A DNA stretch of 64,000 nucleotides, taken from Parascardovia denticolens DSM 10105 = JCM 12538 (lineage in GTDB: Bacteria; Actinomycetota; Actinomycetes; Actinomycetales; Bifidobacteriaceae). Positions 27,105-61,180 of the stretch are shown one piece after another. How positions within the stretch are numbered: position 1 is the stretch's first letter; every line of letters begins with the position of its first letter. The stretch spans positions 1,674,001-1,738,000 of the forward strand of contig NZ_AP012333.1 in the NCBI RefSeq assembly GCF_001042675.1. The letters are read 5' to 3'. The translations under genes were made by a program, and so were the position numbers. The notes beneath the pieces were generated by a model that was not told the origin of the DNA, did no database searches, and saw only the letters and a list, made by a program, of their open reading frames with translations.

Positions 27105-27299
27105 AATCCTTCTTTCAAAAATTCAATTTTTGGATTGTATATTGACTTATTGCCTTGAGTCCATCCACATGAGCTTCCGATATCATTCTTCAGCTCTTCA
27201 TGGACGACTGTGGTACTCAGCATACTCCCAGGTATGGAAATTGCTGAAGAACGCTGAGGAAAGGCGCAGCCACTCTTGCGGCTTGCCTCAGCGCGGAGT

Positions 27300-28182: not shown

Positions 28183-28287
28183 TAAAACCTGCCTGACATG
28201 TCCCTGCGATTGACCGGCCGCGTCATGACCGATGCCATGACTCCCCACTGTTCATGGAATGATCCATTCGATTCATCCTCTTTCGCA

Positions 28288-28334
28288 AAATGACCGGACC
28301 ACACGCATGATTCCATAGCGCAGTCCGGTCATTT
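28288..28334. terminator. Hairpin between pilin and sortase genes
   Basis: AAATGACCGGAC (28288-28299) and GTCCGGTCATTT (28323-28334) are perfect 12-bp arms around a 23-nt loop. It may lower read-through from the major pilin into the sortase gene, a common way to set the pilin:sortase ratio. Confidence 0.65.
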
Positions 28335-28365
28335 AATCATTATCACCCCTTGCCGCCGAAGGCGA

Positions 28366-29794: not shown

Positions 29795-29845
29795 CACTTG
29801 TCTCCTTATCTTTAATTTTTCCCCAATTTTTGGAAAATCCTGATT

Positions 29846-37514: not shown

Positions 37515-37633
37515 GCAAGTAAAGTCGTAAGGTCGTAAAGACCAAGGCAAACTTAGGCGCCCACATCCAATCGATGCCTGCGCCCGACAGGTGAAGGGTT
37601 ATCAGAGATATAGGAAAAGATAAAAAGGGAATA

Positions 37634-37665
37634 AGTGGAGGCGGCCCGCGATGGTTGCCTCCACT
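37634..37665 (+). terminator. Hairpin after nrdD
   Basis: AGTGGAGGC (37634-37642) pairs with GCCTCCACT (37657-37665) and is followed by CTTTCTTTTCTTTAT. It may separate nrdD from nrdG or only reduce read-through. Confidence 0.8.
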
Positions 37666-37805
37666 CTTTCTTTTCTTTATCTATTCTTTATACCTATCTT
37701 TTGCACCCTTTCTTTGCATCAATACATCCTCATACCTTTCGCAATCCCTTTCAAGGCAATGACGATGGAAGCCGGATGAAAGATCCCAACGGTTAGGAAA
37801 CGCAC

Positions 37806-38615: not shown

Positions 38616-38760
38616 GCCACATCCCGTCCTTTCCTGCTCATCCTCTTCTTATTCCTTATCCTTTCTTACCCTTTCATGACCTTGTTTCCTTTCTTTGACA
38701 TCTCTTTTTTCCCCCCCTGCTCTTCGTTACCTTTCCCTTTCCCCCTTGCTTCCCCCCCCT
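38616..38760. other. Pyrimidine-rich stretch after nrdG
   Basis: Nearly the whole 145 bp is C and T on the plus strand, with runs such as TTTTTTCCCCCCC (38705-38717) and a C8 run near 38752-38759. No gene. It contains no obvious hairpin. Long homopurine/homopyrimidine tracts can form triple-helical DNA and stall polymerases; it separates two convergent genes. Confidence 0.6.
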
Positions 38761-41256: not shown

Positions 41257-41537
41257 ATTTCTCCTTCACTATCATCGGCGGCCCGCGAAGCCCAAACCTG
41301 CGGACGCCAGGATACATAAGGTTGATGGCGGTCGACGGCCGCCCAGCGACGGAAGCCGAAACATCCACGCCTGCATCCACTATGAAGGGCATCCGGCGGA
41401 AACTCCAGCGATGAAAGGCAATGTGGTCGAATGTGAATAACACGCCCCATCCCGGGCTTGACAAATCCTCCGTCCACCGGACGGACCCGCCGCATTGTGG
41501 ACAACATGGCCCATCTTTTTTGCTAGCGCCTTCTTCT

Positions 41538-41543
41538 TATAAT
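41538..41543 (+). promoter_or_regulatory. Candidate -10 element of glgE
   Basis: TATAAT, 65 bp upstream of the glgE start, with only a weak T-rich -35 region at about 41515-41520. Confidence 0.45.
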
Positions 41544-41607
41544 GGAAGGGCTAGTATTCAAAACAGGTGATAACTGCAGCATAGACAATGCATAAAGGAG
41601 AGATCGT

Positions 41608-43932
41608 ATGGCACGCAAGTCTACAAACCACGTGACCGGTCAAGCAGAACCAGCCGAAACGAAGATGACGAATACTGAATCCGCCACCGAGAAGAAGCCC
41701 CGTGGCCGGGTCAAGAAAGCGACGAGCGTCAGCACGGCCAGCAGCACCAGCAGCACCAGCAGCCGTCCCCGCAAGACGACCCGCGTTACCCGCACGACCA
41801 CCGCCGCAAGCTCCTCCCGCGCCCGGACCCATGCCAAGAGCGGGAAAGAAGCCCAGTCCGATTCCTTTGCCCGCACCAGTCCGCAAGAATTCGGGCGGGT
41901 CAACGTCATGAACGTGAAACCGGCCCCCCAGAACGGGTTCATCCCTCGGGCCGAACTGGGCGAACAAGTGGCCGTTCAGGCCAATGTCTTCATTGAAGGC
42001 CGCCGCCACGTCGGAGCGTCCGCCGCCGTCTACACCAAGTCCGGAGCCCTTTTCCAGCGGGTCCTCCTGACCTGCACCATCGCAGGCCTGGACCAGTGGA
42101 ATGGCCAAGTCCGCCTTGGGGAAAGCGAAACCGTCCTCCCCTGGGAACCCGGCTTCGCCGCCATGGCCAAGAAACTCGGCACGTGGAAGCTGGTAGTCGA
42201 AGGTTGGGAAGACAGCTACGCCGGCTGGATCCACGACGCCCGCATCAAGGTGGAGACCCAGGATGACCAGGAAAACACCTTGGAAGAGGGCCTGCATCTG
42301 TTCGAACGCTGGCTGGGAAGCAAAGACGCCCATCTTCTGGTCAAGGACAAGAAAGTCCTTCAAAAGGCCATTGACGCCTTGGGCGACAAAAGCCTGACCT
42401 TCGAAGACCGCCTGGCCGCCGCCGACAGCCTCGACGTGCATAAACTGCATGAGACCAAACCTCTGCGCGACGGGATCAGCCCTTCCAATCCGGTGAAGAT
42501 CGAGGTCCAACGCCCCCACTCCTCCTTCAGCGCCTGGTATCAATTCTTCCCTAGGTCCGAAGGCGCCTATGTGGACGAGAAAACCGGCAAAATCGTGCAA
42601 GGGACTTTGAAGACTGCCCTGTCCGGTCTGGACCGGGCCAAGACCGAAGGCTTCGACATCGTCTACCTGCCCCCGATCTTCCCCATCGGCGTCACCAACC
42701 GCAAAGGCAAGAACAACGCCTTGACCGCTGGTCCCGACGACCCCGGTTCCCCCTTCGGAATCGGCAGCGACTTGGGCGGGCACGACACGGTTGACCCCCT
42801 CCTGGGCACCATGAAGGACTTCGAGGCTTTCGTCGCTTACGCCCACAAGCTTGGCCTGGAGGTCGCCCTGGACTTCGCCCTGCAATGCTCCCCCGATCAT
42901 CCTTGGGTCGAGCAGCATCCCAACTGGTTCCACATCAAGCCCGATGGGACCATCGCCTTCGCAGAGAATCCGCCGAAGAAGTACCAGGACATCTACCCGA
43001 TCGATTTCGAGGCCGACATGCCCGGCATCGAGAAGGAAGTGGAACGGGTCCTGGACCTGTGGATCAGCAAAGGCGTGACCATCTTCCGGGTGGACAATCC
43101 CCATACCAAGCCCGTCCGCTTCTGGCAGGACGTGATCGCCAAAGTCACCAAGAAGCATCCCCAGACCCTCTTCCTGGCTGAGGCCTTCACCCGCCCGTCC
43201 ATGATGCGGGCTTTGAGCTACGCCGGATTCACCCAGTCCCACTGCTACTTCCCTTGGCGCAACAGCGCGGAAGAACTCAACGAATACCTGGCTGAGACCA
43301 ATTCCGACGAAGCCTTCTTCCAACACAACACCTACTGGCCCACCACACCTGACATCCTCACCGCCTATCTGCGCGACAACGGGATCGCCGGGCACGCGGT
43401 CCGGGCCGTCCTCGCCGCCATGGGCAGCCCCAGCTGGGGGATCTACAACGGTTACGAACTGATCGAGAACGTCCAGAGGGGAAGCTTCGAGGAGCCCAAC
43501 GACAACGAGAAGTACGAAGTCAAAGTGCGCGATTGGGGCCGGATCAAGGAATACGGCATCGCCAAGCTCCTCACCCGCCTCAACGCCATCCGCCGCGCCC
43601 ACCCGGCCACGCAGACCTACCATGACCTGCATATGCTCGAAACCCGGAATCCGGCCATGGTCGCCTTCTACCGCCACCTGCCTGCCGAGCTGAGCGAAAA
43701 CGGCAAGTCCGACACGGTCATCGTGGTCGTCAATCTCGACGGGCACAACGCCCAGCAAGGCCAGGTGCACATCGAGCTGGGCGACCTGGGTCTGACCGGA
43801 AGCGAGCTGAGGCTGAAAGACGAACTCACCGGGCGCGATTTCACCTGGAGCTACGACAACTACGTCTCTTTGGCCCCCTGGGCCGACGTGGCGCACATCC
43901 TCACCGTCCGTCATCCCGGCGACAAGGACTGA
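41608..43932 (+). CDS. glgE: Alpha-1,4-glucan:maltose-1-phosphate maltosyltransferase
   Basis: GlgE (GH13) extends alpha-1,4-glucan with maltose from maltose-1-phosphate. The N-terminal beta domain is followed by the (beta/alpha)8 barrel with the phosphate-site and catalytic motifs: nucleophile Asp in TIFRVDNPHTKP (about residue 497) and acid Glu in LFLAEAFTRP (about 524). Intact C-terminal domain (SYDNYVSLAPWADVAHIL). At 774 residues it is about 90 longer than usual because of an N-terminal extension rich in Ser, Thr, Arg and Lys (STASSTSSTSS). AAAGGAG precedes the ATG. No other glycogen gene is nearby. Confidence 0.95.
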   Translation: MARKSTNHVTGQAEPAETKMTNTESATEKKPRGRVKKATSVSTASSTSSTSSRPRKTTRVTRTTTAASSSRARTHAKSGKEAQSDSFARTSPQEFGRVNVMNVKPAPQNGFIPRAELGEQVAVQANVFIEGRRHVGASAAVYTKSGALFQRVLLTCTIAGLDQWNGQVRLGESETVLPWEPGFAAMAKKLGTWKLVVEGWEDSYAGWIHDARIKVETQDDQENTLEEGLHLFERWLGSKDAHLLVKDKKVLQKAIDALGDKSLTFEDRLAAADSLDVHKLHETKPLRDGISPSNPVKIEVQRPHSSFSAWYQFFPRSEGAYVDEKTGKIVQGTLKTALSGLDRAKTEGFDIVYLPPIFPIGVTNRKGKNNALTAGPDDPGSPFGIGSDLGGHDTVDPLLGTMKDFEAFVAYAHKLGLEVALDFALQCSPDHPWVEQHPNWFHIKPDGTIAFAENPPKKYQDIYPIDFEADMPGIEKEVERVLDLWISKGVTIFRVDNPHTKPVRFWQDVIAKVTKKHPQTLFLAEAFTRPSMMRALSYAGFTQSHCYFPWRNSAEELNEYLAETNSDEAFFQHNTYWPTTPDILTAYLRDNGIAGHAVRAVLAAMGSPSWGIYNGYELIENVQRGSFEEPNDNEKYEVKVRDWGRIKEYGIAKLLTRLNAIRRAHPATQTYHDLHMLETRNPAMVAFYRHLPAELSENGKSDTVIVVVNLDGHNAQQGQVHIELGDLGLTGSELRLKDELTGRDFTWSYDNYVSLAPWADVAHILTVRHPGDKD

Positions 43933-44048
43933 AAAGCCCACCGAGTCGGAAGACCGGCAGGCTTCATGCCTTGCCCTATAATGAAGACATCCCCAAGATC
44001 AACAAGGCGGGGCCACCTTTCCCGCCGGCCACACTCAAAGGAGCATTC

Positions 44049-44552
44049 ATGGCAGAAACATTCGACGTCTTGGTCGAGATCCCTCAGGGTTCCCACGATA
44101 AATTCGAAGTGGACCACGAAACCGGCCGCATCAAGCTGGACCGCATCCTCTTCACTTCCATGGGCTATCCCGATGATTACGGTTACATCGAAGACACCCT
44201 GGGCGAAGACGGAGACCCGCTGGACGCCCTGATCTACATGGGCGACCTGCGCCCCAACCTCTTCCCCGGCTGCGTGGTCGAATGCCGCGCCGTGGGCCTT
44301 TATCACATGGTCGATGAGGCCGGCGGCGATGACAAGGTCCTGTGCGTGCCCGCCGATGCCCGTTTCGACAAGTTCCAGGACATCGATGACATCCCCGATT
44401 ACCACAGGGATGTCATCGATCACTTCTTCAACCAATACAAGGCTCTGGAGCCCGGCAAGGAAGTACAGCCCGGCTCTTACTGGACCAACGCCTCCAAGGC
44501 CAACGAGGACATCGTGGCCGCTCGCCAGCGTCTGGCCGAGTCCGAAAAGTAG
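44049..44552 (+). CDS. ppa: Inorganic pyrophosphatase
   Basis: Cytosolic enzyme hydrolysing pyrophosphate to two phosphates. ATG 44049 is chosen because AAAGGAG (44037-44043) is at proper distance and the protein then begins MAETFDVLVEIPQGSHDKFE as in the family. The metal site GEDGDPLDALIYM is intact. 167 residues, normal for a soluble type I enzyme. Confidence 0.96.
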   Translation: MAETFDVLVEIPQGSHDKFEVDHETGRIKLDRILFTSMGYPDDYGYIEDTLGEDGDPLDALIYMGDLRPNLFPGCVVECRAVGLYHMVDEAGGDDKVLCVPADARFDKFQDIDDIPDYHRDVIDHFFNQYKALEPGKEVQPGSYWTNASKANEDIVAARQRLAESEK

Positions 44553-44950
44553 GTTTCTTCTTCTCCCTCCCGCTGGGATTCCCGCCTGGGCCGGGATTCC
44601 CACTTGAGTCAGGACTCCGCTTGGGTTGGGATTCACCCCAACCATGAATTCCTGATGGGAGTGAGGTTTTGCGGTGGTCGACCGTATGGCGGCCACCACT
44701 TTTCTTTGCCTTCTCTTTTGTTTTTTACTGTTGTCTTCTCCATTCTTCGCTTGACCCTTACCCGTCCATCGTTTATCTTTCTGCCTTTCCTCGCTTTCGT
44801 TCGCCCTTCCCCGCTTTCCTTTTCCTCCCCTGCATCGCGCCGCCCGGGAGAAACCCACAAATCTTCGTTGGACAAGGCGAATCAGACAGATCAAAAATCC
44901 ATCAAGCGCGATCATTCCTTAAAATCGTTACGGACGGGGATAATGAAGGC
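44553..44950. other. Intergenic region with repeats and terminator
   Basis: Directly after ppa are three repeats of GGGATTC in G/C-rich context (44575-44632). GGTGGTCG (44673-44680) pairs with CGGCCACC (44690-44697) and is followed by ACTTTTCTTTG, a probable terminator. Then comes a T/C-rich stretch to about 44830. No gene seen. Confidence 0.6.
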
Positions 44951-45571
44951 ATGGATAACGATTTGAATGAAATGGCCGAGGAAAACCGCTCGAACGCCGT
45001 GTGGACCCGCATGCTTCAAGGCAATAAACGCTTCGCCCTGGGACAGGCCGAGCATCCCTGGCAGGATGAGGAGACCCGCTTATCCCTTGTGGATAGCCAG
45101 AATCCGGATGCTGCCGTCCTGTCCTGCTCGGATTCCCGCGTCCCGGTCGAGGTGATCTTCGACGAAGGTCTGGGAGACATTTTCACCGTCCGCACCGCCG
45201 GAGCGACCATCGACCAAGCCGTCTTGGAGTCGCTGGAATACGCGGTGGACAGCCTGCATGTGAGCATCATCGTGGTCATGTCCCATCAGGATTGCGGCCT
45301 GCTGAAAAAGGCGACCGAGCTGGCCCGGACCAGCCAAGACACCGATTTCATGACTTACAGCATCAATCAGGCCTTGGAAACGGTCAAGACCGCCATCGAA
45401 TCCGAAGTGGACGAGCCGGCGGATATCGAACGCATCCATATCTCCCTGCTGATCGAGCGTCTGGTGGATCGATCGGAGATCATCCGCCGGGCCTTGGCCG
45501 ATGACAAGTTGAAGATCGTCGGCGCCCGCTACGTGATGACGACCGGCTTGGTGGAGGTCCTCAGCTTCTGA
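44951..45571 (+). CDS. Beta-class carbonic anhydrase
   Basis: The 206-residue enzyme interconverts CO2 and bicarbonate. Zinc ligands Cys59, His112 and Cys115 are in AVLSCSDSRVP and SHQDCGLL; Asp61-Arg63 form the usual dyad. Start at ATG 44951 (MDNDLNEMAEEN) or the Met 7 codons later; the ribosome site is weak in both cases. Bicarbonate supply fits the carboxylation needs of a fermenting organism. Confidence 0.92.
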   Translation: MDNDLNEMAEENRSNAVWTRMLQGNKRFALGQAEHPWQDEETRLSLVDSQNPDAAVLSCSDSRVPVEVIFDEGLGDIFTVRTAGATIDQAVLESLEYAVDSLHVSIIVVMSHQDCGLLKKATELARTSQDTDFMTYSINQALETVKTAIESEVDEPADIERIHISLLIERLVDRSEIIRRALADDKLKIVGARYVMTTGLVEVLSF

Positions 45572-45753
45572 TGACGTCCGCTTTAGCTGAAGCGACCCTG
45601 TGGGCGGTCTTCTCTCCAAGTCAGGCGACGAATCGAGATCGGCCGCTGGTGGATCCGCAAGCGAGACTCCAGCGGGGTCGATTGAAGTAAAGACAAACGC
45701 GAACGGTCACGACCATAGACCGAAAATCGAGGAATTAAGGAATAGGAACTGAC

Positions 45754-47406
45754 ATGTCATCGCTTTGGATCGACATCATCGCCATCATCATTTTCATGCT
45801 CATCGGGTCGGTCTTTTCCGGTACCGAGATGGCTCTGATCTCCTTGCGCACCTCGCAGCTGGAACAGCTGGAACAGGAGGACGAACGCGGGGCGAGAGTG
45901 GCCCGGGTGGCCCGGAATCCCAATCGTTTCCTGTCCACTGTGCAACTGGGAGTCACTTTGGCCGGCTTCCTTTCCGCCTCCTTCGGCGCCAGCTCCATCG
46001 CCCCCTTCCTCACCCCCGTCCTGGTCTCCTGGGGGCTGCCCCGGGGCTTCGCCAGCGGTCTTTCCACAGTCCTGCTCACCCTCATCATCTCCTACTTCTC
46101 CATCGTGGTCTCCGAGCTAACCCCCAAGCGCATAGCCCTGCAACAACCGGTGAAGATCGCCCGAGCCGTCGTCCCGGTCGTCGACGCCATCGCCACCGTC
46201 TGCGCACCCCTGATCTGGCTGATCAGCAAAAACATCAACGGTCTGGTCCGTCTGCTCGGCTTCGACCCCAACGAAACCGAAAGCGAAGTGTCCGACGACG
46301 AGCTGCGCGTCCTCGTCTCCTCCAACGAGCAACTGGGCAAGGATGAGCGGGTGATCCTGGACGACGTCTTCGACGCTTCGGAGACCATCGTGGCGGAAGT
46401 CATGCGGCCGCGAGCGGACGTGACCTTCATCAGCGGGGATATGCCCCTGCCCGAGGCGGCCGGCTTCGTGCGCGACCTGCCTTACTCCCGCTACCCGGTC
46501 ATCGGCAAGGATTTCGATGACGTGCTCGGCTTCGTGCATGTGCGCGACCTGCTGGACGTGCGTGACCTCCAGGCCCGGACCGTGCGGGACGTGACCCGGG
46601 AAGGGATCAGCCTGCCCGGAACGTCCAAGATCCTGCCGTCCATCAGCCTTCTGCGCAAGAAGGGGATCCACCTGGCCATCGTCATCGACGAATACGGCGG
46701 AACCGACGGAATCGTCACCTTGGAGGACATGACCGAGGAGCTGGTCGGCGACATCCGCGACGAGTATGACCTGCCCGAAGACGGTCCCGCCCACCAGGCG
46801 ACCGCCTTCCACGATGGCATGATGACCGTGGACGGCGGCATGACTTTGGAGGATTTCGCCGACATCTCCGGCATCGAACTGGAAGATGGGCCCTACGAGA
46901 CCGTGGCCGGCTACCTCCAGGCCCATACCGGCGAACTGGGCTACCCAGGCCAGGAACTGCGCATCTCGGGGACGGGGATCGTCTCCGGGGCCAATGCCGA
47001 AACCACGTCCGAGCTGAATCCCCGACCCGGCCGTGTGGGGGATCATGCGGACAATCGCACGGAGAATCATGCTGGAGGCCGCCCCGGCGACCGCTTGGGA
47101 GAGGACGACAAGAGCAAGAAGAACGACACTGGCGGCAAAGAGAAGAAGGGGAAAGGGACTCAGGCTGGCCAGAAGACCGATTCCGCCGCCGCGGACAACT
47201 TCGATGGCTTCACCATGACCGTCACCGCCATGGACGGTCGCCGCATCCAGACCGTGGAGGTCAGGCTGGTGCAACCCGACCAGCCCGCGGACGCCATCGA
47301 CCCCATCAAAGGAAGCCATGGGAATGGCCGAGATGCCGAAGGTACCGAAGCGGCCGAAGATACCCAGGATACCCAGGATTCCAAGGACTCCCCCGCCCAT
47401 TCGTGA
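45754..47406 (+). CDS. CNNM/CorC-like protein (DUF21 + CBS)
   Basis: The 550-residue membrane protein has an N-terminal DUF21 domain of four helices (IDIIAIIIFMLIGSVFSGTE, with ELTPKRIAL), a CBS pair (about residues 205-330, containing IVIDEYGGTDGIVTLEDMTEE) and a CorC_HlyC domain. The last strand of that domain (GFTMTVTAMDGRRIQTVEVRLV) is separated from its start by about 75 disordered residues rich in Asp, Lys and Gly. Family members move or regulate magnesium. The acidic, Asp-rich tail after the domain is lineage-specific. Confidence 0.85.
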   Translation: MSSLWIDIIAIIIFMLIGSVFSGTEMALISLRTSQLEQLEQEDERGARVARVARNPNRFLSTVQLGVTLAGFLSASFGASSIAPFLTPVLVSWGLPRGFASGLSTVLLTLIISYFSIVVSELTPKRIALQQPVKIARAVVPVVDAIATVCAPLIWLISKNINGLVRLLGFDPNETESEVSDDELRVLVSSNEQLGKDERVILDDVFDASETIVAEVMRPRADVTFISGDMPLPEAAGFVRDLPYSRYPVIGKDFDDVLGFVHVRDLLDVRDLQARTVRDVTREGISLPGTSKILPSISLLRKKGIHLAIVIDEYGGTDGIVTLEDMTEELVGDIRDEYDLPEDGPAHQATAFHDGMMTVDGGMTLEDFADISGIELEDGPYETVAGYLQAHTGELGYPGQELRISGTGIVSGANAETTSELNPRPGRVGDHADNRTENHAGGRPGDRLGEDDKSKKNDTGGKEKKGKGTQAGQKTDSAAADNFDGFTMTVTAMDGRRIQTVEVRLVQPDQPADAIDPIKGSHGNGRDAEGTEAAEDTQDTQDSKDSPAHS

Positions 47407-50574: not shown

Positions 50575-50728
50575 TCAGTAAATCGGATTCCAATTCTTGG
50601 CAAATCGGATTTCCAGCCTCAGTAAATCAGATTCCTCGTCCTGAGTAAATCGGATTCCCCTTCCTTAGCAAATCAAACTTGTATCCTTAATAACTTGGAT
50701 TTTCATCCTTAATAAATCGAATACTGAT
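50575..50728. repeat. Seven degenerate repeats with 22-bp period
   Basis: Repeat starts are at 50575, 50596, 50618, 50641, 50664, 50686 and 50708, spaced 21-23 bp. The shared core is CTyAGTAAATCGGATTCC, decaying toward the right. The last copy overlaps the 3' end of the convergent ygjP-like gene. The period is close to two helical turns, so every copy faces the same side of the DNA. Confidence 0.75.
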
Positions 50729-51440
50729 TCAACTCCCTTCTGCGCGACCGCCAGTCGGGCAGGTAGAGGTCCATGCGATCGCGGAAGTTTTTCCCATGGC
50801 CTCTCTCGTAAAGGTGGGTCAGCTCGTGGACGGCCACGTACTCCACCAGCGGGTCCGGGACGGCGGCCAGGGCCAAGTTGATGCGGATGCGGCCAGTGGC
50901 GGGCGTGCAGGACCCCCAGCGGGACGTCATGGCCCGGAAAGTGATCATCTCGGGCTGACGGCCGATGGTCTGCCGGTAGGTCGCCAGAATCCCCTCAACC
51001 CGAGGACGCAGGTTCGTTTTAGCCTCTTCCCGAGTCCGAGAATCCCAGACGGTCACAGGGATGAGCCGGGGACGGTCCTGGTTGAAAGCGCCTTCCCCTT
51101 GAAGGAGGCTCTCCCCTTGCTGGAAGAGATTCCCCTGTTGATTGATGTCTCCCTGCAAGAGGATCTCCCTTTGGAGGAGGACTCCCTGCGCGAGCAGGAC
51201 TTCCCGCTGATGGTGAATCCACTCCGCACGGGACCGAACAAAATCCGCGATCGACCGCTTCGACGCCCGCATCGGGGCGGAAACCTCGACCCGGCCGCGG
51301 GGAGGCTTGACGCGTAAATACATGTTGCGGTTCCCCCTCCTGCGGGTCACAAAGACCTCGACGGGGCCCACAACTAGCCGTTCTTCAACCACTCCCCCAT
51401 TGTGACACGGGCGCAGGCCAGAGACGCAGATCCGGCCCAA
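50709..51440 (-). CDS. YgjP/M48-type metallopeptidase-like protein
   Basis: The protein of up to 243 residues has the zinc motif HELTHLYERGHGKNF (HExxH plus a third His) and MTSRWGSCTPATGRIRINLALA, both typical of YgjP/SprT-like (DUF45) proteins. The exact start is uncertain; a later GTG/TTG near VEERLVVGP is likely. Between the N-terminal part and the core lies a Gln/Leu/Gly repeat (LLQG, QQG units, about residues 84-120) not seen in the family's normal fold. Confidence 0.8.
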   Translation of the reverse strand: MGRICVSGLRPCHNGGVVEERLVVGPVEVFVTRRRGNRNMYLRVKPPRGRVEVSAPMRASKRSIADFVRSRAEWIHHQREVLLAQGVLLQREILLQGDINQQGNLFQQGESLLQGEGAFNQDRPRLIPVTVWDSRTREEAKTNLRPRVEGILATYRQTIGRQPEMITFRAMTSRWGSCTPATGRIRINLALAAVPDPLVEYVAVHELTHLYERGHGKNFRDRMDLYLPDWRSRRRELNQYSIY

Positions 51441-51699: not shown

Positions 51700-51773
51700 G
51701 GGCCCATAGCTCAGCTGGTTAGAGCGCGTCCCTGATAAGGACGAGGTCGGAGGTTCAAGTCCTCCTGGGCCCA
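51700..51773 (+). tRNA. tRNA-Ile (GAT)
   Basis: Acceptor GGGCCCA/TGGGCCC, D arm GCTCAGCTGGTTAGAGC, anticodon loop CTGATAA (GAT), T loop GTTCAAGTC. CCA is not encoded. Confidence 0.96.
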
Positions 51774-51790
51774 CGGATGACTTCATCCCC

Positions 51791-51863
51791 GGGGGTATGG
51801 CGCAGCTGGTAGCGCATCTGCTTTGCAAGCAGAGGGTCAGGGGTTCGAGTCCCCTTACCTCCA
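51791..51863 (+). tRNA. tRNA-Ala (TGC)
   Basis: Acceptor GGGGGTA/TACCTCC with one G-T pair, anticodon loop TTTGCAA (TGC), T loop GTTCGAGTC. CCA is not encoded. The Ile-Ala pair is the one often found in rRNA operons, but no rRNA gene is adjacent. Confidence 0.95.
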
Positions 51864-52049
51864 CAAGATTTCCCTGCTTTCTACCCCATCAGGACGATTC
51901 GGTCATTTAGTCGCTGACTGCGAAAGCAGACGAGGATAAGCCTTCCCTCCCCTTTTCATCCGTCGTTGGCCATACAAATCCGTATATTCATAGCTGGTCA
52001 CGGCTTCTTTACTCGATCCATCGCTTGACGCGCGGGCGATAATCGACTT

Positions 52050-52456: not shown

Positions 52457-53389
52457 TCATTCTCCTTTTTCGGAAGGTGCGTCCGTCGATTCCACGAATT
52501 TCATGCAGGTTAAGGAGAAAATCAGGGCGAAAACGACCTTGATCGAATCAGCGGCGAGGAAGGGGAGGGAAACCATGATCAAAGAACTGACCGAGACATG
52601 GGTCAGGAAGGCCTGCATAAGAATCCCCATCGTATACTGGGTCAGCATCAGGCCGACGAAACAGGCGAGGGCGAAGCGGGAGAGCGTAAGAACCCGGCTG
52701 AAAACCTGTCTGGAAATCCGACTACCCCTGCGACCGCTGCCAATGCCCATGACGTCCCTTAATCCCCCATCAAACCGGCGTGCACTCGCGGCTGCGGCCA
52801 CATCCACCGCCGATCGGGATCGGGTCGCGCCAGCGATGACGGCCGTGACCAAGGTTGCCACCAGGAACCCCCAGATGTAGCCCGCCGTCGGCCCGACCAA
52901 AGCCGCGGCCGAAATGAATCCCGAGAAAACGGGGAAACCGGCGAGTCCCAAGGCGATATAGGAAGCCACGGCTGCGGTGATCTGCGGCAAGGACAGGGTG
53001 AGGGCCATGCACATGAGGACCGCGGTTTGGAGGGTGATAGGCACTGGATTGCCCGGAATCTGGATGCGGCCGGCAGCGGTGGCCAGGACCAGGCATAGAA
53101 GGGCGAGAAGGACCTTCACCACCGAGACCACGAAAGACTTCCCCGCATGGGTGAACAGTCTTCCCGGCTCCGCTTCCAGGGCCTTTGCCGGGGTTTTCGC
53201 CTCTTCTCGACTTTCCCATCGAGCGTTCTGCTGATTATTTTGCCGTGCGTCCTGCCGATCGCCTTGGTGGTTTCCTTGCCAAGCTCCCTCTTGCCGCGCT
53301 TCTTCTCGCCTAGCTTCTTGTTGCCGGACTTCTTCTTGCCAGCCTTGTCGGATGTTTTGTCGATCTCCACGATGAGTCGAAGGATTCAT
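52457..53389 (-). CDS. bioY: BioY biotin transporter (ECF S component)
   Basis: ATG 53389 follows GAGGT. A 75-residue N-terminal extension rich in Gln, Arg and Glu precedes the BioY core: GRIQIPGNPVPITLQTAVLM, YIALGLAGFPVFSGFISAAA, LVGPTAGYIWGFLVATL. About six membrane helices bind biotin; with a shared EcfAT module they drive uptake. A second basic insert (ARRFDGGLRDVMGIGSGRRG) lies in a cytosolic loop. No ecfA/ecfT is adjacent. Confidence 0.92.
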   Translation of the reverse strand: MNPSTHRGDRQNIRQGWQEEVRQQEARREEARQEGAWQGNHQGDRQDARQNNQQNARWESREEAKTPAKALEAEPGRLFTHAGKSFVVSVVKVLLALLCLVLATAAGRIQIPGNPVPITLQTAVLMCMALTLSLPQITAAVASYIALGLAGFPVFSGFISAAALVGPTAGYIWGFLVATLVTAVIAGATRSRSAVDVAAAASARRFDGGLRDVMGIGSGRRGSRISRQVFSRVLTLSRFALACFVGLMLTQYTMGILMQAFLTHVSVSSLIMVSLPFLAADSIKVVFALIFSLTCMKFVESTDAPSEKGE

Positions 53390-53446
53390 TTCTACCTCTT
53401 TTCCGCCCTTTTCTTTCCGTGTCCGGAAGGGCGTTTTTAATGGCAA

Positions 53447-53931
53447 GTGTTTTCAACGGCCGGTCATTCGCGAAGACGGACCTTCCCCGTAACGAATGCT
53501 TTTCACTGGCGGGCACTGCTGATGGGCGTTTGCGGGAAAAACACCCTAGCCCACGGCCACCATGACCGATATGTCAATCGTATTCGATCGTAGGTCCGTT
53601 CGCATCGGCCGAATTCATAAAAAATGACGATGAAAATTGTCGAATTCTACAAGAATCGATGAAATCCGACACCTCGTGGAGCCGGTCTGGGCCACCGGCT
53701 GTGGACTAAGTCGAAGTTCAAAAATTCAGGGGCTAAAAATAAGGGGTCTTTTCAGATACTTTGACTTAGTACACGCGCGGAGTGGCATAAGCTGCATAAG
53801 CGGCGAGAATAGCCTTAGTGACGAAAACGCCAAGGCAATAAGGTAGGGGGAAGCCAAGCGCGGGCATGAAAGAGGGCCCCAACCACTTGGTTGGGGCCCT
53901 CTTTCCGTTTAACCGTTTTATGAGGCGGAGG
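53447..53931. other. Intergenic region with bidirectional terminator
   Basis: No gene is seen in this 485-bp stretch. AGAGGGCCCCAA (53871-53882) with TTGGGGCCCTCT (53891-53902) and flanking T/A runs terminates the subtilase gene. A/T-rich motifs around 53610-53650 may belong to a bioY promoter. Confidence 0.6.
53871..53902 (-). terminator. Terminator of the subtilase gene
   Basis: Perfect 12-bp stem (AGAGGGCCCCAA) with an 8-nt loop, followed on the minus strand by TTTC. It lies 30 bp after the subtilase stop. Confidence 0.85.
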
Positions 53932-56900
53932 CTATTTCTGAGCTTGGCGCTTCATCCTCAAAACCACGGACAGGGTCGTCACGGCGGAAACGAAGGCGAC
54001 CGAGACGGAGATGACGACCAGGGCCAGGAGACCTTCCCGGGAGGAAGGATTGGTGGCGGTGGCGGTCGTCGCGGCATCGGCCTTGCGAACGGCGCCAGTG
54101 GCGCCAGAGGCGTTCACGGCTTGAGCCGCGGACTTGTCCTTGACTGTGCGGGCTTCCCGGGAAGCGGCCGCAGATGAATCTTGGCCCGCACGGGCGGACC
54201 CGAGCACCCTGGCATCTTTGGCATCCCCAGCCTTATCTGCGTCGTCGGCGGTCCCTGAGGGGTCAACCGAAGAAGCGGAAGCAGGAACCTTGTCCAGACC
54301 GGCCGCGGACTTCTTGAAAGCGGGCTTCCTGGAGGAAGACGGAGCGCGGTTCGCAGCGGACTCCTTAGCGGAAGAGCGCGCAGCACCCTTATTCTTCTCA
54401 GCCCTCTTCTTCACCTGGGCGTTCCGGGCGTTCCGAGAGGCCTTGCCCGCCTTGAAGATCACCCCGAGGGAGGAAGCGGGAACCCGCTTGCCGGCGTTGG
54501 GGTTGGCCTTGGCTGCGTCAGCGGCGGAAGAGACGATCCACTCGGCCTTCCGCACCTGCTGGAGGGCGGACAGCTTGCCGGCGACATCGACCGCGGCCAG
54601 GCCGGAGTTGCGGGCATCGGTGGCCCGCTTGGCCTGCTGCTGGGCGGTGGCCTTGGCCGAGCCGGAGGCGCCTGCCAGGGCCGAGGCATCCTGTTGTACC
54701 TTCTGCTGGGCCAGGTTCAGCTTGGCGTTGGCCAAGGCCCGCAGCTGAAAGTCCGCTTCCTGGGCGGTGACGGTACCGGCGTTCGCCTGGGCCAGGAGCC
54801 CGGCGCCAGCCTGGGGATCGCCGCTGACGGATCGTAGGGCGGCGATCTCATCCAGGGTGAAACTCCGGTCTTCGTCGTTCAGCTTGATGACGGCGCCATT
54901 GACCGCGGAGTCCAGATTGCGCTGGGCGGCGGCCAGGGCATCGTTGGATGCCTGGGGCGCGGCGGCGGCTGACTGGGCTGCGGCCAAAGCGGCCTGGACC
55001 TTGCTGACGGAGGCGGAGTCATACTTGCCGGTGGCGACCAGTTGACGGGCCCGGACCTCGGAGGCGGAAAGGAGGTCCTTCTGCTCCTGGCTGGCCGCGG
55101 GCGATCCGTCGGCGGTCGGCTTGACGGAGGTCACCTGGTAGGAGACGGCCTCGGACTCGTTGCCCGCGGCGTCCACGGTCTTGAAGAAGTAGGTGCCGTT
55201 AGCGGCCACCTGCACTCCTTCAGCCGGCAGGTCGCGGTAGGTGGCGCCGTCGTCGGAGCTGAAACGCACGGTCTGTGCCGCGGCCCCGGAAGCCCCGGCC
55301 GCCGCGTTCAGTTTCACCACGCGTCCCGAGTTCGCCAAGGAAGCCGTGACGTTCGGCTTATTCAGCGCCTTCTTCGGGGTGTAGTTGACGGTGACGACCT
55401 TGGTGACCTTGTTGCCGCCGAAGTCGGAGACGGTCACGGTAATCACGTTCTTGCCTTGCAACAGGTTGACGGTCTCATCGATGTCCATCTTGCCGGGCTG
55501 ACCGCTGTTCATATCGATGTCGGCGTACTGATTCTTCACGCTGCTGCCGTTGATGAACAGCTGCAGGTAGTTGAGATTGTCGGTAGCGGTGCCACGAATG
55601 CGATACTGCGCCTTGTTGACGTTCACCTCCTTATCGGTGGGGTTCTTCAAGGAGAGGGTGGGAGGAACGGAATCCAGCTCGAAGACCAGGGTGTCCTGGA
55701 CCACCTTCTCCTGGGAGGAATCGCCGTAGATGACGCTGAAAACCTTGCGGCCGGCCTGACCCAGCTTCAGCTGGACGCTGAAGGTGAGGTCGTCGTTGAT
55801 GTCCACATCCTTGCCATCGATCTTGAGGGTCGTGGTGGGGTGCTTGACCTTGCCGGTGATGGTCGCGATGCCGGTCTTGGCGTCGTAGAAGCGGGAGGTG
55901 AGGCCGACCTCGTTCTCGCCGAAGGTGATTCCGTTGTCGAAGGAGACGGCGTTCTTCAGCACATCGGGGTCGTAAGAGGAGGAAACGCTCTTACGGACCG
56001 AGGTCTGATTGCCGTCGGCGTCGGTAGCGGTCACGGTCACCGAGTTGTCGCCGTAGATCACGGGCACCTCGGCGCTGAAGCTGCCATCATCCGCGATCTG
56101 GGCGCGGACGGTGGAGAAGGAGCCGGAGGAGCGCAGGACGACCATGACGGCGTCGGAGCTGACTTTGCCCTTGACCTCGACCTTCTGCTCGGAGGTCTCA
56201 TCCTCGCCGCCGTTCACGGTGAGATCGGAGAAGACCGGGGCCTGCAGACGGACCTTGGCGGTCATCTTCTTGAGGACCTTGGTGCGGGCGGCGTTGGTGT
56301 ACAGGGTCACCGTGGTCTCGTAATCCTTGGCCTCCAGCGGCAGGCTGGCCGCGAACAGGTGGCTTTGGGGATCGTAGGAGACGGTCAGGTTCCGCATCTT
56401 GCCATCGGCGTTGGTATAGGTGCCGTAGACCCGGGCCGGGTAGGTGCCGGTGAAGACGAAGCTACCCCCGCTGACCCCGCCGCGGTAGCCGGACGTCAGC
56501 TGGGTGATGCTACCGGGCAGGCCGCCCTTGCTCAGGACCAGGCTGTAGACGACGGACTCGGGCTTCTGGGCGGTCACCACATCGTCGAAGACGTTGCTGG
56601 CGTTGTCGGTCAGATAGAGTTCCACGATGTTGTCCCCGTCGCCCAGGGTTTTGGCCTGGGCCGGGGTCAGCGGGATCTCGATCTGGGAGTAGCCGTCGGC
56701 GGTGGTGCCGGTGACGGTGTAGCTGGCGTCGTTGTTGACCACCTGGTTGATCGCCGTTCCCGCGTTCCTCTTGGCGTCGAGGCCGGACAGGTCGTCCTTG
56801 GTCTCGGCGGTCAGGTAGTAAGAAGTGGCGCCGTTTTCCGTCTTGGCCGCCAGATCGATGTTGCGGACCTGGGGGGCCTGGGAATCCAGGGTGAAGGACA

Positions 56901-59900
56901 CGTCGTAGGACTGTCGCTTGGCGCTGCCTTCAGGGGCGGCGGAGATGCGGTAGACGTACTTCCCATCGGCCGCCTTGACGGTCTTGCCGGTGGCCTGATC
57001 GTAGTAGCTGCCGTCCCAGCTGGGCGGGTGGAAGTAGACGAAGCGCTGCCCGTTGGAGTAATAGTAGCTCTTGGTCTCTTCCGCGGAAGTGGACAGGGTG
57101 GTCACGGACTTGCCTTTGGCGTCCAGGATCTCCACCTTCACGTCGTGCACGTTGCGCAGCAGGTAATACTGCATGCTGATGGCGTTGAAAGTTGCGTCAG
57201 GATTGGTGGAGAAGGCGAGGTGGGAGACGTCCACCTTCAGGTTCCCCTTCGCGTCCTGGGTGAGGCCGCCGTAATACTGGCTTCCGTTGGAGGCGTTGGT
57301 CAGCAGGGGGATGGTTCCGTAGTTGCCCACGGTCCCGTCGAAGGTGACGCCGTTGATGGCGTCCACGATGTCCAGGCCGGCCCAGTCGCCGAAGAATCCC
57401 AGGTAGGGGATGTTGAGACGGGAGCCGTCGTTCCCTTTGAAGTTGAGGAAGCCTTCCACATACTGGTCCTGATCGAAGGTCTTGGGCAGGGTAAGGGTGA
57501 AGGTGACCTTCACGGTCTTGCCCGCCTTGACCTTGATGCTTCGCTTGCCGGACTTGATGCTGGCCCCGGCGATCTTGGCGTCGTAAAGGACCCCGTTCTT
57601 GGGGTCGATGGCGGACGTGTAGACGCCGTCGGTGTCCTCATTGGAATCCATGGTGTAGACCAAGGTCTTCTTGGTCCGGTTGGTGAAGACCAGCTTGAAG
57701 GTCTTCCTGGTGGTGGTGAAGGACTTGAGCTCGACCGCGGGGTATCCGTTTTCGGAGACCACGGTGGAGGGGTTGTTCTCCAGGGCGTCGATGGCGGCCT
57801 TCACGTCGACCAGACCCGCGCCTTGGCGGCGGGGAGAGACGATGACGTTGTTGTAGGCCTCATCGTTGATGGGCTGGGCCGTATTCATCTCGATGGCCTT
57901 GATGAAGTCGGTCAGCTGGCTGCCCTTGAGGTTCTTATAGTAAGCCTCATAGAAAGCGTTCTTCTTGTTGTTGATCGCCTGCTTGAGGATCGCTTGGGAA
58001 CCGGCCACGAAGGGGGAAGCCATGGAAGTCCCGGACAGGTTGGTGTAGCCGTTGTTGTTCTGGGTCGACCAGATATTCCCGCCGGGGGCGGTGATGTCCG
58101 GCTTGAAGGAAAGGTCGGAAACCGGGCCGTAGGAGGTGAAGTCGGACATCCTGTCCACCGAATACTTGGCGTTGGGCAGGAGGGACAGTTTGATGGCGAC
58201 GCCGAACGTGTCGTTCGGGTGGGCTTTGACCCATTCCACCAGCTTCCGGCCGGACACTCCGGACAAGCCGAAGGTGGGGAAATCGGCGGACAGGGAGATT
58301 GAGGTCAGGGGAACGTCGGTGTCCTGGTTGTTGACGATGATCAGACCCGCGGCTCCGGCCGTCTTGGCGTTGGCCTGCTTGGCGGTGAAGGTCAGGCTTC
58401 CCCGACGGACGATGGCGATCTTGCCTTTGACGGCGTCGGTGAAGTCGCCGGGGCTGCCCAGGCTCAGGTTGCCCGAGGCGTCGGTGACGACGGCGAACTG
58501 CTTGCGGTCGAAGGCGGAGGCGTACTTGTTGTCGGACAGCTTGACGGCCTGGGGCCCCAGCTGGAAGTCACCATCCGTGATGGTGGCCGCCATGGTGGTG
58601 ACCTTGGTGTTCTCGCCCGAAGCCACGGTGGTGGCCCCGCGGGAGGTGCCCGGGTTGCCCACGGTCTCGTTGTCCGGCAGGCCGTAGTAATCCTTGTTCA
58701 CGCCTTCGGTGGACGAACCGGTGGTCCCCGCGTTGCCGGCGGAGATGACGGCGGCCGTGCCCGAGTCGTTGGCGTTCTGGACGGCTTGCTGCTCAGGGTC
58801 TTGCAGGCCTTGGTTGCCGGAGGTGGAACCGAGCGACATATTGAGCACGTCGGCCCCGATCTTGGCAGAATCCTCCACGGCCGCCACGATGGTGGTGGTG
58901 CCGGTGGTGGAGGAGGTGTTGGAGTTGGTGAAGACCTTCATGGCCAGGAGCTGGGATTCAGGCGCGACGCCCACGACGGAGGTGGCAGGGTCGCTGCCGG
59001 TGCCGTTGGCCCCGATGATGCCCGCCACGTGCATGCCGTGCTGCTCATCGACCGTGGTGTCGGTGATGATGGTGTTGTTGTCCGCGTAGTTGAAGCCGTA
59101 AGGCACCTTTTCGGTGAAGTACTTGCCATGTTTGGCTTGCTTGATGAACCGGGCCACGTCGGACTTCTTGAGCTTGACGACAGTGCTCTTGCTCAGACGC
59201 ATGTCCTTGTGGTTGGGGTCGATCCCGGTGTCGATGACGGCCACGACCGTCCCTTCGCCCTTGTACTTGTAAGCCGACCACACGGCCTGCACGTTGGCCA
59301 TGGAGTTGGCGTTGGCCTCCAAGGGGTAGAAGACCTTTTGCACGGTCACGGACTGGACGCCGGGCACTTGACGTACGCGGGCCAGGTTCTTCACCTGGAC
59401 CTTGGTGGAGAAACCGTTGATCACGTAACCGTAGCTTTCCCCGGCAGCCTGACCGGTGACGGCCTGGACGGCCTTCTTCACTCCGGCTTGGGCGGCGATC
59501 ACCTTGTCCGTCGCCTGTTCGATCTCGGCCGTACTGGAATAGTTGGCCTTGACGCTGCCGTTGGTGGAGGCCGGGGCGGCGGTCATCCGCACGACGACGT
59601 CCACGTAGGTGTTCTCTTGTTGGACTTTGCTCAGCTTGGAATAATCGATCTTCCTGGCGGCCAGCTGGGCCCGGATGGCCTGGGTGGTGGAATCGTCCTG
59701 CCCGTTGATGGCGGCCTGGACCGCTTGGTTGGCGGTCACCTTCCCGAGCAGTTGTTTCCCACCGGCCTTGGCTGACCGGGCGGTTCTCCCTGAGACCTGG
59801 GCCACCTGGGCGGCCTGGCTCCCGGGGAGGTCATCGGCGGCGAAAGCCTGCATCCCTGTGAATGGAACGCTGGCGAAGGTGCCGACCGCGACTGTCGCCG

Positions 59901-59937
59901 CTAGAAAAACCGAGAGATTTTTTCTTTGCGCTCGCAT
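53932..59937 (-). CDS. Giant lactocepin-like S8 subtilase
   Basis: 2001 residues from ATG 59937 (GGAGGGG upstream). Signal peptide (LAATVAVGTFASVPFTGMQA), inhibitor-type propeptide, then the catalytic triad: Asp in AVIDTGIDPNH (about residue 235), His in DEQHGMHVAGIIG (about 302), Ser in LSGTSMASPFVAGS (about 637). A protease-associated domain is inserted between His and Ser (about 475-600). Fn3-like and several Ig-like domains follow, then an Ala/Lys-rich coiled stalk and a C-terminal membrane helix (GLLALVVISVSVAFVSAVTT) with basic end but no LPxTG. This is the architecture of C5a peptidase/lactocepin-type cell-envelope proteases. It faces a PrsA-like foldase gene divergently. Confidence 0.93.
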   Translation of the reverse strand: MRAQRKNLSVFLAATVAVGTFASVPFTGMQAFAADDLPGSQAAQVAQVSGRTARSAKAGGKQLLGKVTANQAVQAAINGQDDSTTQAIRAQLAARKIDYSKLSKVQQENTYVDVVVRMTAAPASTNGSVKANYSSTAEIEQATDKVIAAQAGVKKAVQAVTGQAAGESYGYVINGFSTKVQVKNLARVRQVPGVQSVTVQKVFYPLEANANSMANVQAVWSAYKYKGEGTVVAVIDTGIDPNHKDMRLSKSTVVKLKKSDVARFIKQAKHGKYFTEKVPYGFNYADNNTIITDTTVDEQHGMHVAGIIGANGTGSDPATSVVGVAPESQLLAMKVFTNSNTSSTTGTTTIVAAVEDSAKIGADVLNMSLGSTSGNQGLQDPEQQAVQNANDSGTAAVISAGNAGTTGSSTEGVNKDYYGLPDNETVGNPGTSRGATTVASGENTKVTTMAATITDGDFQLGPQAVKLSDNKYASAFDRKQFAVVTDASGNLSLGSPGDFTDAVKGKIAIVRRGSLTFTAKQANAKTAGAAGLIIVNNQDTDVPLTSISLSADFPTFGLSGVSGRKLVEWVKAHPNDTFGVAIKLSLLPNAKYSVDRMSDFTSYGPVSDLSFKPDITAPGGNIWSTQNNNGYTNLSGTSMASPFVAGSQAILKQAINNKKNAFYEAYYKNLKGSQLTDFIKAIEMNTAQPINDEAYNNVIVSPRRQGAGLVDVKAAIDALENNPSTVVSENGYPAVELKSFTTTRKTFKLVFTNRTKKTLVYTMDSNEDTDGVYTSAIDPKNGVLYDAKIAGASIKSGKRSIKVKAGKTVKVTFTLTLPKTFDQDQYVEGFLNFKGNDGSRLNIPYLGFFGDWAGLDIVDAINGVTFDGTVGNYGTIPLLTNASNGSQYYGGLTQDAKGNLKVDVSHLAFSTNPDATFNAISMQYYLLRNVHDVKVEILDAKGKSVTTLSTSAEETKSYYYSNGQRFVYFHPPSWDGSYYDQATGKTVKAADGKYVYRISAAPEGSAKRQSYDVSFTLDSQAPQVRNIDLAAKTENGATSYYLTAETKDDLSGLDAKRNAGTAINQVVNNDASYTVTGTTADGYSQIEIPLTPAQAKTLGDGDNIVELYLTDNASNVFDDVVTAQKPESVVYSLVLSKGGLPGSITQLTSGYRGGVSGGSFVFTGTYPARVYGTYTNADGKMRNLTVSYDPQSHLFAASLPLEAKDYETTVTLYTNAARTKVLKKMTAKVRLQAPVFSDLTVNGGEDETSEQKVEVKGKVSSDAVMVVLRSSGSFSTVRAQIADDGSFSAEVPVIYGDNSVTVTATDADGNQTSVRKSVSSSYDPDVLKNAVSFDNGITFGENEVGLTSRFYDAKTGIATITGKVKHPTTTLKIDGKDVDINDDLTFSVQLKLGQAGRKVFSVIYGDSSQEKVVQDTLVFELDSVPPTLSLKNPTDKEVNVNKAQYRIRGTATDNLNYLQLFINGSSVKNQYADIDMNSGQPGKMDIDETVNLLQGKNVITVTVSDFGGNKVTKVVTVNYTPKKALNKPNVTASLANSGRVVKLNAAAGASGAAAQTVRFSSDDGATYRDLPAEGVQVAANGTYFFKTVDAAGNESEAVSYQVTSVKPTADGSPAASQEQKDLLSASEVRARQLVATGKYDSASVSKVQAALAAAQSAAAAPQASNDALAAAQRNLDSAVNGAVIKLNDEDRSFTLDEIAALRSVSGDPQAGAGLLAQANAGTVTAQEADFQLRALANAKLNLAQQKVQQDASALAGASGSAKATAQQQAKRATDARNSGLAAVDVAGKLSALQQVRKAEWIVSSAADAAKANPNAGKRVPASSLGVIFKAGKASRNARNAQVKKRAEKNKGAARSSAKESAANRAPSSSRKPAFKKSAAGLDKVPASASSVDPSGTADDADKAGDAKDARVLGSARAGQDSSAAASREARTVKDKSAAQAVNASGATGAVRKADAATTATATNPSSREGLLALVVISVSVAFVSAVTTLSVVLRMKRQAQK

Positions 59938-60277
59938 CAATCCCCTCCGTTATCTCATCGAATACCCATAAAAGATATTCTTATCAATCCTTATAACTTT
60001 GATAAATAATTCATATCCCCTAGAAGTTATGAAATATTTATCAGAAATTATACCCACAGTACCGACCATATATAAAGGGAGATGCAGGCCCATGTCCGCA
60101 TATCGGTCAGACGAAGAAAACCCTTATAGGCGATGGATGTTATTATGCAGAGCATAGGTTGAAGAAGCTGAATATTTTCTTCCCTCGCCTAAGCAGAATA
60201 AAATGCCGAAACGAACATCCGAAGACCGGCAGGGCCGCCCTCGGATGCCTGGATGCAAACGCAGAAGGAGATGCTTG
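59938..60277. promoter_or_regulatory. Divergent promoter region of protease and foldase
   Basis: About 340 bp, AT-rich between 59960 and 60080 (for example GATAAATAATTCATATCCCC), in contrast to the GC-rich genes on both sides. It must carry promoters for both directions. No gene is seen. No clear operator palindrome was found. Confidence 0.55.
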
Positions 60278-61180
60278 ATGCGGAAGATGAAGACCCCCTT
60301 GACCCCCATCCTCGCGACCCTCGCAGCCGCCACCCTCTTGTTGGGCGGTTGCGGATCGTCCCCCAGCGTGGCCACCTACCAAGGCGGGGACGTGAGCCAA
60401 GAGGCCTTCTACCAAGAGCTCAAGAGCTCCCCCAGCAGCAAGACCATCCTCGCCAACCTGCTCATCTACCGGGCCCTGGACCATGCCTACGGGTCTTCCG
60501 TCAGCCAGGCCCAAGTGGACAAGGCCTACAAGGGCTATCAGGACCAATACGGGTCCGGATTCGACTCCTACCTGAGCCAGAACAACTACACCAAGGACTC
60601 CTTCAAACGCAGCCTTCGCACCAATCTTCTGAGCGAAGTGGCCTTGAAGAAACTGAAGAAGGTCTCCCCCGCCCAGCTGGCGGACGCCTGGAAGGACTTC
60701 CACCCGCAGGTGACCGTCCAGCATATCCTGGTCAGCGACCAGGCCACGGCCCAGCAGGTGATCGACCAACTGGGCCAAGGCAAGGACTTCTCCGAATTGG
60801 CCAAGACCTATTCCCTGGACACCTCCAGCAAGGACGAAGGGGGCAAAGTCACCTTCACCTCCAGCAACCGGGCCTACGACTCCACCTTCAAAGACGCGGC
60901 CTACGCTCTGACCCAAGGCAAGTACACGACCAGCCCGGTCAAGGTGGTGGACGGGTACGAGGTGATCAAGATGGTCTCCAACCCCAGCAAGGGCACTTTC
61001 GCGAGCCGGAAGAAGGAGCTGACCGAGGCCGTCTACGCCAAGTGGCTGCGCGATTCCACGGTCATGAAGCAGGTGATCAGCCAGGTGCTCAAGAACGAGA
61101 AGGTGCAGATCCAGGACAAAGACCTGTCCAACGCCTTGGATTCCTACAAGGTCCCTGCGGCCACCGTTCAGACTAAATAA
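60278..61180 (+). CDS. PrsA/PrtM-like foldase lipoprotein
   Basis: ATG 60278 is chosen because AAGGAG (60265-60270) is 7 bp upstream. Lipobox LLLGGC with lipidated Cys25, SurA-like N-terminal helices, then a parvulin-type domain (VQHILVSDQATAQQVIDQLG ... FSELAKTYSLD ... EGGKV, about residues 146-240), and a helical C-terminus; 300 residues. Such proteins fold secreted proteins outside the membrane. Its place opposite a lactocepin-like protease mirrors prtM-prtP of lactococci, where PrtM is needed for protease maturation. Confidence 0.88.
   Translation: MRKMKTPLTPILATLAAATLLLGGCGSSPSVATYQGGDVSQEAFYQELKSSPSSKTILANLLIYRALDHAYGSSVSQAQVDKAYKGYQDQYGSGFDSYLSQNNYTKDSFKRSLRTNLLSEVALKKLKKVSPAQLADAWKDFHPQVTVQHILVSDQATAQQVIDQLGQGKDFSELAKTYSLDTSSKDEGGKVTFTSSNRAYDSTFKDAAYALTQGKYTTSPVKVVDGYEVIKMVSNPSKGTFASRKKELTEAVYAKWLRDSTVMKQVISQVLKNEKVQIQDKDLSNALDSYKVPAATVQTK

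Follow-up and report, generated by a model that had tools for sequence, protein, structure and literature searches.

Does the Parascardovia denticolens locus at which a giant subtilase gene and a parvulin-like lipoprotein gene diverge from one AT-rich gap hold a true prtP-prtM pair, as in lactococci, and how did such a pair come to stand in an actinobacterium? The locus lies in a 64,000-nucleotide stretch of P. denticolens DSM 10105 = JCM 12538 (contig NZ_AP012333.1, positions 1,674,001 to 1,738,000, forward strand), which we call the window and in whose coordinates all positions are given. A sequence-only reading had proposed a lactocepin-like protease and a PrsA-like lipoprotein on either side of a 340-bp AT-rich gap in an actinobacterium, and these elements stand: the host is P. 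denticolens, the two proteins have 2,001 and 300 residues, and the GC content of the gap is 0.42. The pair is in fact a stronger finding than first proposed. By sequence, the likeness to prtP-prtM is one of homology and not of layout alone, and the two proteins are orthologous to PrtP and PrtM. The locus contains the following features:

53932-59940, minus strand: protease open reading frame (ORF), 2002 residues counted from TTG
53932-59937, minus strand: prtP orthologue, cell-envelope subtilase (Pfam matches, identity to lactococcal PrtP, alignment with SK11 PrtP, tree)
53872-53901, minus strand: strong GC-rich hairpin with a short T run, probable terminator 30 bases past the protease stop (read directly)
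59938-60277, no strand: divergent shared control region, 340 bp, between the likelier starts
60000-60015, plus strand: left arm (16 bp) of an inverted repeat, candidate operator, one mismatch between arms
60028-60043, minus strand: right arm (16 bp) of the same repeat, one mismatch between arms
60203-61180, plus strand: foldase ORF, the longest
60278-61180, plus strand: prtM orthologue, PrsA-type parvulin lipoprotein with lipobox LLGGC and Glu in GY-E-VIKM (PRK04405, identity, tree, active-site columns)

The likelier protease start is the second codon, ATG 59937, which is preceded by GGAGGGG and gives a protein of 2,001 residues (53932-59937, minus strand). From N to C terminus it consists of a signal peptide, a prodomain, an S8 domain with a PA insert, fn3_5, Glucodextran_B-like stretches, an Ala-rich stalk and a hydrophobic C-terminal segment. 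Peptidase_S8 with its PA insert, then fn3_5, and also two Glucodextran_B stretches match Pfam above cut-offs. The prodomain model PF05922 matched the proteases of the relatives Scardovia wiggsiae and Scardovia inopinata and, at the same threshold, did not match that of P. denticolens. In an alignment with SK11 PrtP, the prodomain junction is conserved and the catalytic motifs VIDTGID, HGMHVAG, ISAGN and GTSMASPF are kept; we take the working residues to be the Asp, His, Asn and Ser of these motifs, respectively. Self-cleavage would probably occur near ANANSMANVQ. The protein ends in a hydrophobic stretch followed by RMKRQAQK, and the hairpin beyond the gene was not reported by a consensus terminator scan. 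Judged by its sequence, the protein is a cell-envelope subtilase of the PrtP (lactocepin) type, with putative activity on casein.

On the opposite strand, three features favor ATG 60278 as the foldase start (300 residues): homology, the signal peptide and a ribosome site, AAGGAG. A lipoprotein signal with its lipobox Cys was read directly from the sequence: ILATLAAATLLLGGC. PF00639 and PF13616 (PPIC/rotamase) match above cut-offs, and PRK04405 is the only listed NCBIfam model to exceed its own (404 bits against 339). The best matches to this protein in a plasmid collection are the PrsA proteins of lactococcal and L. paracasei plasmids, with 62-63% identity over residues 24-296, and in the two plasmid records examined these PrsA/PrtM genes adjoin prtP divergently. 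The best plasmid matches to the protease are prtP genes, with 59.5-60% identity from residue 1 or 2 to 1707, and its 813-residue N-terminal part is 70-72% identical to the nearest Lactobacillaceae genomes. Next among the plasmids comes an L. brevis pair (protease 46%, foldase 50%). Among the matches listed, the remaining long protease matches reach about 37% or less, except one broken lactococcal prtP copy at 53.5%, and short local matches run higher. The pair had been described as sequence-divergent. At 60% and 63% identity to the lactococcal proteins across phyla, it is not especially so.

Phylogenetic trees of both proteins place the scardovial copies beside the Lacticaseibacillus/lactococcal-plasmid pair and inside the Lactobacillaceae; both trees are unrooted, and we read the nesting by taking unpaired or distant rows as the outside. 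The foldase tree has 56 rows (25 paired and 31 unpaired), and the 25 paired rows form a PrtM clade apart from the unpaired PrsA proteins with support of 100/100. Within it, the three scardovial rows join those of the casei group and the lactococcal plasmids (99/98). The tree of protease catalytic domains, with 42 rows, contains a 24-row PrtP clade (99/100) in which the scardovial and casei-group rows group together at 100/100, while five actinobacterial S8 proteases included in the tree fall outside the clade. One change of phylum explains each tree, these five rows being left out for PrtP. Branching inside the scardovial trio is weakly supported.

The active site of the foldase also separates the paired proteins from the rest. 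At the variable position of GY-x-VIK, which we take to be the second histidine of the parvulin active site, all 25 paired foldases have Glu, whereas 24 of the 31 unpaired ones have His. Four PrsA chains from the PDB, aligned at this position, have His (5htf and 4wo7) or Tyr (9ibn and 5tvl), so the loss of His is not unique to the paired foldases. Fixation of Glu, on the other hand, looks from these alignments like a mark of the protease-linked foldase class. According to a title in the references of PMC3307742, the chromosomal lactococcal homologue PmpA reportedly has no isomerase motif.

The two genes are not separated in relatives: all three scardovial genomes (P. denticolens, S. inopinata and S. 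wiggsiae) carry the divergent pair. Its immediate neighbors differ in each. Within about 43-54 kb on either side, P. denticolens and S. inopinata have only one common gene besides the pair. Between P. denticolens and S. wiggsiae, all that the surroundings have in common is a loose block some 20-45 kb from the pair and one displaced gene, which adjoins the pair in S. wiggsiae and whose P. denticolens match lies about 30 kb from it. This comparison of gene order was made without a systematic search for mobile-element ends. Since the surroundings have changed, the protease and foldase evidently stay together while their neighbors vary.

To follow the linkage outside the Actinomycetota, we used a sample of 397 Lactobacillaceae genomes, the family of genome G559. 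The names Lactobacillaceae and casei group are our own attribution, made because one genome, G880, is near-identical in the trees to the L. paracasei plasmid pair. At least 72 of the 397 genomes have a match to the catalytic part, the counts being lower bounds as at most two protease candidates were scored per genome. The foldase check covered 31 of these 72 and 4 more with weaker matches; the other 37, also weaker, lay outside it. Where the protease match reaches at least 56%, every genome (17/17) has a second foldase divergently beside it, giving 18 pairs; a tandem copy in G951 and a copy cut by a contig end in G963 were not counted as pairs. Of the 14 genomes whose best protease match is 38-45%, none has a foldase within 9 kb on the protease contig; in the closest case, G1016, the distance is about 9 kb. 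Ten further genomes were searched, four of them with weak protease matches and six with none; nine have one foldase and one has no foldase. Counting scardovial, Lactobacillaceae and plasmid copies together, every pair (24 of 24) is divergent, and the distance between the longest ORFs ranges from 151 to 530 bp; these pairs are not independent, those of the lactococcal and L. paracasei plasmids being almost alike. The prtP-prtM-like arrangement first proposed from the sequence is thus borne out by both the trees and the gene order. Homology and conservation in relatives are far beyond chance. As a separate observation, contig C4 of G951, a Lactobacillaceae genome, has two PrtP-class protease matches in tandem with a foldase between them (36484-45775).

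Among the Actinomycetota, the foldase is a rarity. It occurs in 3 of 189 Bifidobacteriaceae genomes and was not found in the other 186 searched, and a protein search of a separate, smaller sample found it in 0 of 34 family genomes of other genera and 0 of 22 genomes of the order. In a phylum-wide sample, 177 of 296 genomes have some foldase match, the best after P. denticolens itself scoring 70 bits against 640, and the genomes with these other matches share the phylum only and lie outside the class. For the genome-wide search for parvulins, PF00639 was the only parvulin model used, along with the foldase itself as a query. The paired foldase is the sole PF00639 match in each of the three scardovial genomes, and 0 of 36 other family and order genomes matched this profile, against 8 of 14 control genomes. 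Distant S8 proteases do exist elsewhere in the order (19 of 56 further genomes, two of them among the 34 family members, one of these two being G005 with 37-39% identity), but they score at most 262 bits against 1,095-1,740 for the scardovial proteases. In the samples searched, no close copies were found in any actinobacterium but these three.

We conclude, with a probability of roughly 0.85, that an ancestor of the oral scardovial bacteria acquired both genes in a single event from a member of the Lactobacillaceae near the Lacticaseibacillus casei group, and that the pair was then kept and adapted, with the foldase probably assisting maturation of the protease. This rests on homology, joint placement in the trees, linkage and the lack of any other PF00639 parvulin. 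Base composition gave no sign of recent transfer: the third-position GC content (GC3) of the pair is 0.87, compared with a mean of 0.69 (standard deviation 0.13) in 22 hand-picked ORFs of the window. The simplest history is one joint transfer followed by adaptation to the local base composition.

The region between the genes offers a candidate for their joint control. Its GC content (computed on 59941-60277) compares with 0.57 for the window, and both likelier starts, ATG 59937 and ATG 60278, are preceded by a purine-rich ribosome site. The arms of the inverted repeat at 60000-60043 are 12 bp apart and differ by 1 mismatch, whereas the best of 200 dinucleotide shuffles had 3. The surrounding block is well conserved in S. 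inopinata, and the prtP-prtM intergenic region of SK11 likewise contains AT-rich inverted repeats. We regard the repeat as a candidate operator that may couple the two genes. A search for sites resembling an arm, at up to 2 mismatches, found only the two arms themselves in the whole P. denticolens genome (1 in a backward control), 5 matches in S. inopinata including one beside the pair (control 4) and 1 in S. wiggsiae (control 3). A wider regulon was rejected.

Several observations weigh against the joint acquisition or its functional reading. An approximately unbiased (AU) test, itself in favor of the acquisition, rejected a clade of the Lactobacillales pair rows without the scardovial rows for PrtP (p 0.0028), but the same test was just significant for PrtM (p 0.041), and both p-values are weakened because the tested groups were named after the trees had been seen. 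There is a long-branch warning among the distant rows of the protease tree, and one of the 31 unpaired foldases, itself on a long branch, also has Glu at the GY-x-VIK position. As for the operator, the S. inopinata repeat is only 81% complementary, with one arm found at up to 2 mismatches, and the repeat was not found in the S. wiggsiae control region. Promoter-like consensus sites in the control region are at chance level (2 found, 1.1 +/- 0.9 expected from shuffles). Finally, the P. denticolens protease is missing the sortase motif of lactococcal PrtP.

The last point bears on surface anchoring. No LPXTG- or LAXTG-like motif (L[PA]xT[GNAS]) occurs in the last 110 residues of the P. denticolens protease, and the motif is likewise absent from the S. 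inopinata protein, which keeps the hydrophobic segment and basic tail. The S. wiggsiae protease carries LAYTG; LAXTG is presumably the motif of class E sortases. The plain membrane anchor seen by the sequence-only reading therefore holds for P. denticolens but not for the whole genus. Among the 21 Lactobacillales pair proteases, 12 match the pattern and 3 of the other 9 have near-motifs, and because these 9 members also fail it, we treat the LPXTG-type anchor as usual rather than defining for PrtP. The P. denticolens genome does contain a class E sortase, so a missing sortase seems not to be the cause, and the loss seems to lie with the protease itself.

By analogy with lactococci, the pair may work as follows. 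The protease would be exported as a pre-pro-enzyme, and the lipoprotein foldase, expressed from the opposite strand of the shared control region, would be located on the membrane's outer face, where it would help the pro-enzyme to fold, after which the protease would remove its own prodomain near the junction named above. Once mature, the enzyme would stay at the surface: in P. denticolens and S. inopinata its hydrophobic C-terminal segment would be the only anchor, and in S. wiggsiae a sortase would probably attach it through LAYTG. There it might degrade external protein to peptides for an organism of carious lesions. PMC3307742 describes lactococcal PrtM as a PrtP-specific lipoprotein without which PrtP is not active, and PMC10535647 states this need for some homologues. 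We propose by orthology that the P. denticolens protease likewise needs its foldase to become active. Given the orthology, the linkage and the conserved prodomain junction, PrtM-assisted maturation of PrtP is the best guess for P. denticolens.

The alternative that survives best, though we consider it unlikely, is that the foldase serves the envelope in general and stands beside the protease by history only, the protease maturing by itself. This is the case for PrtS of S. thermophilus: according to PMC8623714, this protease lies apart from its PrtM homologue and has no need of it, a further point against assisted maturation here. That example may nonetheless fit a rule in which linkage marks dependence, though PrtS is a different protease. 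As the only PF00639 parvulin of the genome, the foldase could also be used by other exported proteins. Yet the 186 Bifidobacteriaceae without such a foldase imply that the family needs none for ordinary secretion, and the protein belongs to the PrtP-linked clade and not with the unpaired PrsA rows, and has stayed linked to the protease despite changed neighbors.

Much less probable still is a transfer in the reverse direction, in which the casei group and dairy lactococci received the pair from scardovial bacteria. The two groups are indeed sisters in both trees, and the lactococcal and L. paracasei plasmid copies adjoin insertion sequence (IS) transposase genes. However, further Lactobacillaceae branches lie outside both groups, a single change of phylum accounts for each tree, a clade made up of the Lactobacillales pair rows by themselves is rejected in the AU tests, and the samples searched contain no close copies in any other actinobacterium. 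That an actinobacterial subtilase and foldase became neighbors independently of prtP-prtM has a negligible chance of being right, for although distant S8 proteases exist in the order, their scores are far below the scardovial ones, and both trees, by placing the two proteins inside the Lactobacillaceae pair clades, refute a convergent assembly.

Joint acquisition from the Lactobacillaceae would make the scardovial bacteria a natural experiment on the coupling of a foldase to its client. Tentatively, and at somewhat less than even odds, PrtM may represent a client-dedicated class of parvulin with a fixed Glu for His that has to travel with its protease, and lactocepin may be usable in a PrsA-less lineage only thanks to this private foldase and one shared palindromic control site. 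With no other PF00639 parvulin, the scardovial genomes are suited to a clean test of whether PrtM has a single client and whether the change from His to Glu is relevant. P. denticolens, S. inopinata and S. wiggsiae are all linked to human dental caries, as stated in PMC5540593, and an intact cassette in three caries-associated actinobacteria suggests a capacity for surface protein digestion that most relatives are without. According to PMC3716772, the PrtP of L. paracasei breaks down chemokines, IP-10 among them, which makes the scardovial enzyme a candidate for a role in carious lesions. Literature searches aimed at the protease in Parascardovia or Scardovia returned no paper, and among the titles listed by broader searches none reports the pair, but subscription papers and database annotations were outside the search and we do not claim priority; the main text of the family-wide comparative paper PMC5540593 does not contain the words "protease", "foldase" or "peptidylprolyl".

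Elsewhere in the window, a pilus-type locus on the minus strand (25848-32184) looks decayed. It includes a thioester-domain adhesin ORF with LAKTG and a class C sortase ORF that corresponds to no more than the first half of the model, the genome match holding an in-frame TGA, and its pilin-like genes seem split over frames. Genes for tRNA-Ile(GAT) and tRNA-Ala(TGC) are adjacent on the plus strand (51700-51864); such a pair usually lies inside rRNA operons, and no rRNA genes were found in the window. On the minus strand, a BioY protein (52457-53446) has a Gln/Arg-rich N-terminal extension of about 130 residues, and near its gene is one for a YgjP-like protein with a repetitive Gln-rich stretch (50709-51440).

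Compared with known systems, the protease is not specifically close to any solved structure. The nearest by sequence in the PDB, C5a peptidase (245 bits) and Chemokine protease C (221 bits), both of which we take to be streptococcal, have best stretches that cover only query residues ~206-874. The Levilactobacillus brevis plasmid pPUL102_1 has a divergent foldase and protease in the same clades, but identity is 46% and 50% for protease and foldase, the protease has only 1,516 residues, and a second foldase gene overlaps its far end. The plasmid locus (L180; 2748-4109, 4045-8595 and 8920-9858) is thus one protease flanked by two PrtM-class foldases. The closest known counterparts are the prtP-prtM pairs of dairy Lactococcus plasmids (e.g., L. 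cremoris SK11) and Lacticaseibacillus paracasei, which have in common with P. denticolens both orthologous proteins (60% and 63%), the divergent order, an AT-rich control region of about 300 bp and proteases alignable as far as the stalk. Unlike them, the P. denticolens pair is chromosomal and of high GC (GC3 0.87), with no sortase motif and no second PF00639 parvulin. A lactocepin with a linked foldase is already known from lactic acid bacteria; here the pair stands in an unexpected phylum, in a sole-parvulin context and, in P. denticolens, without a sortase motif on the protease.

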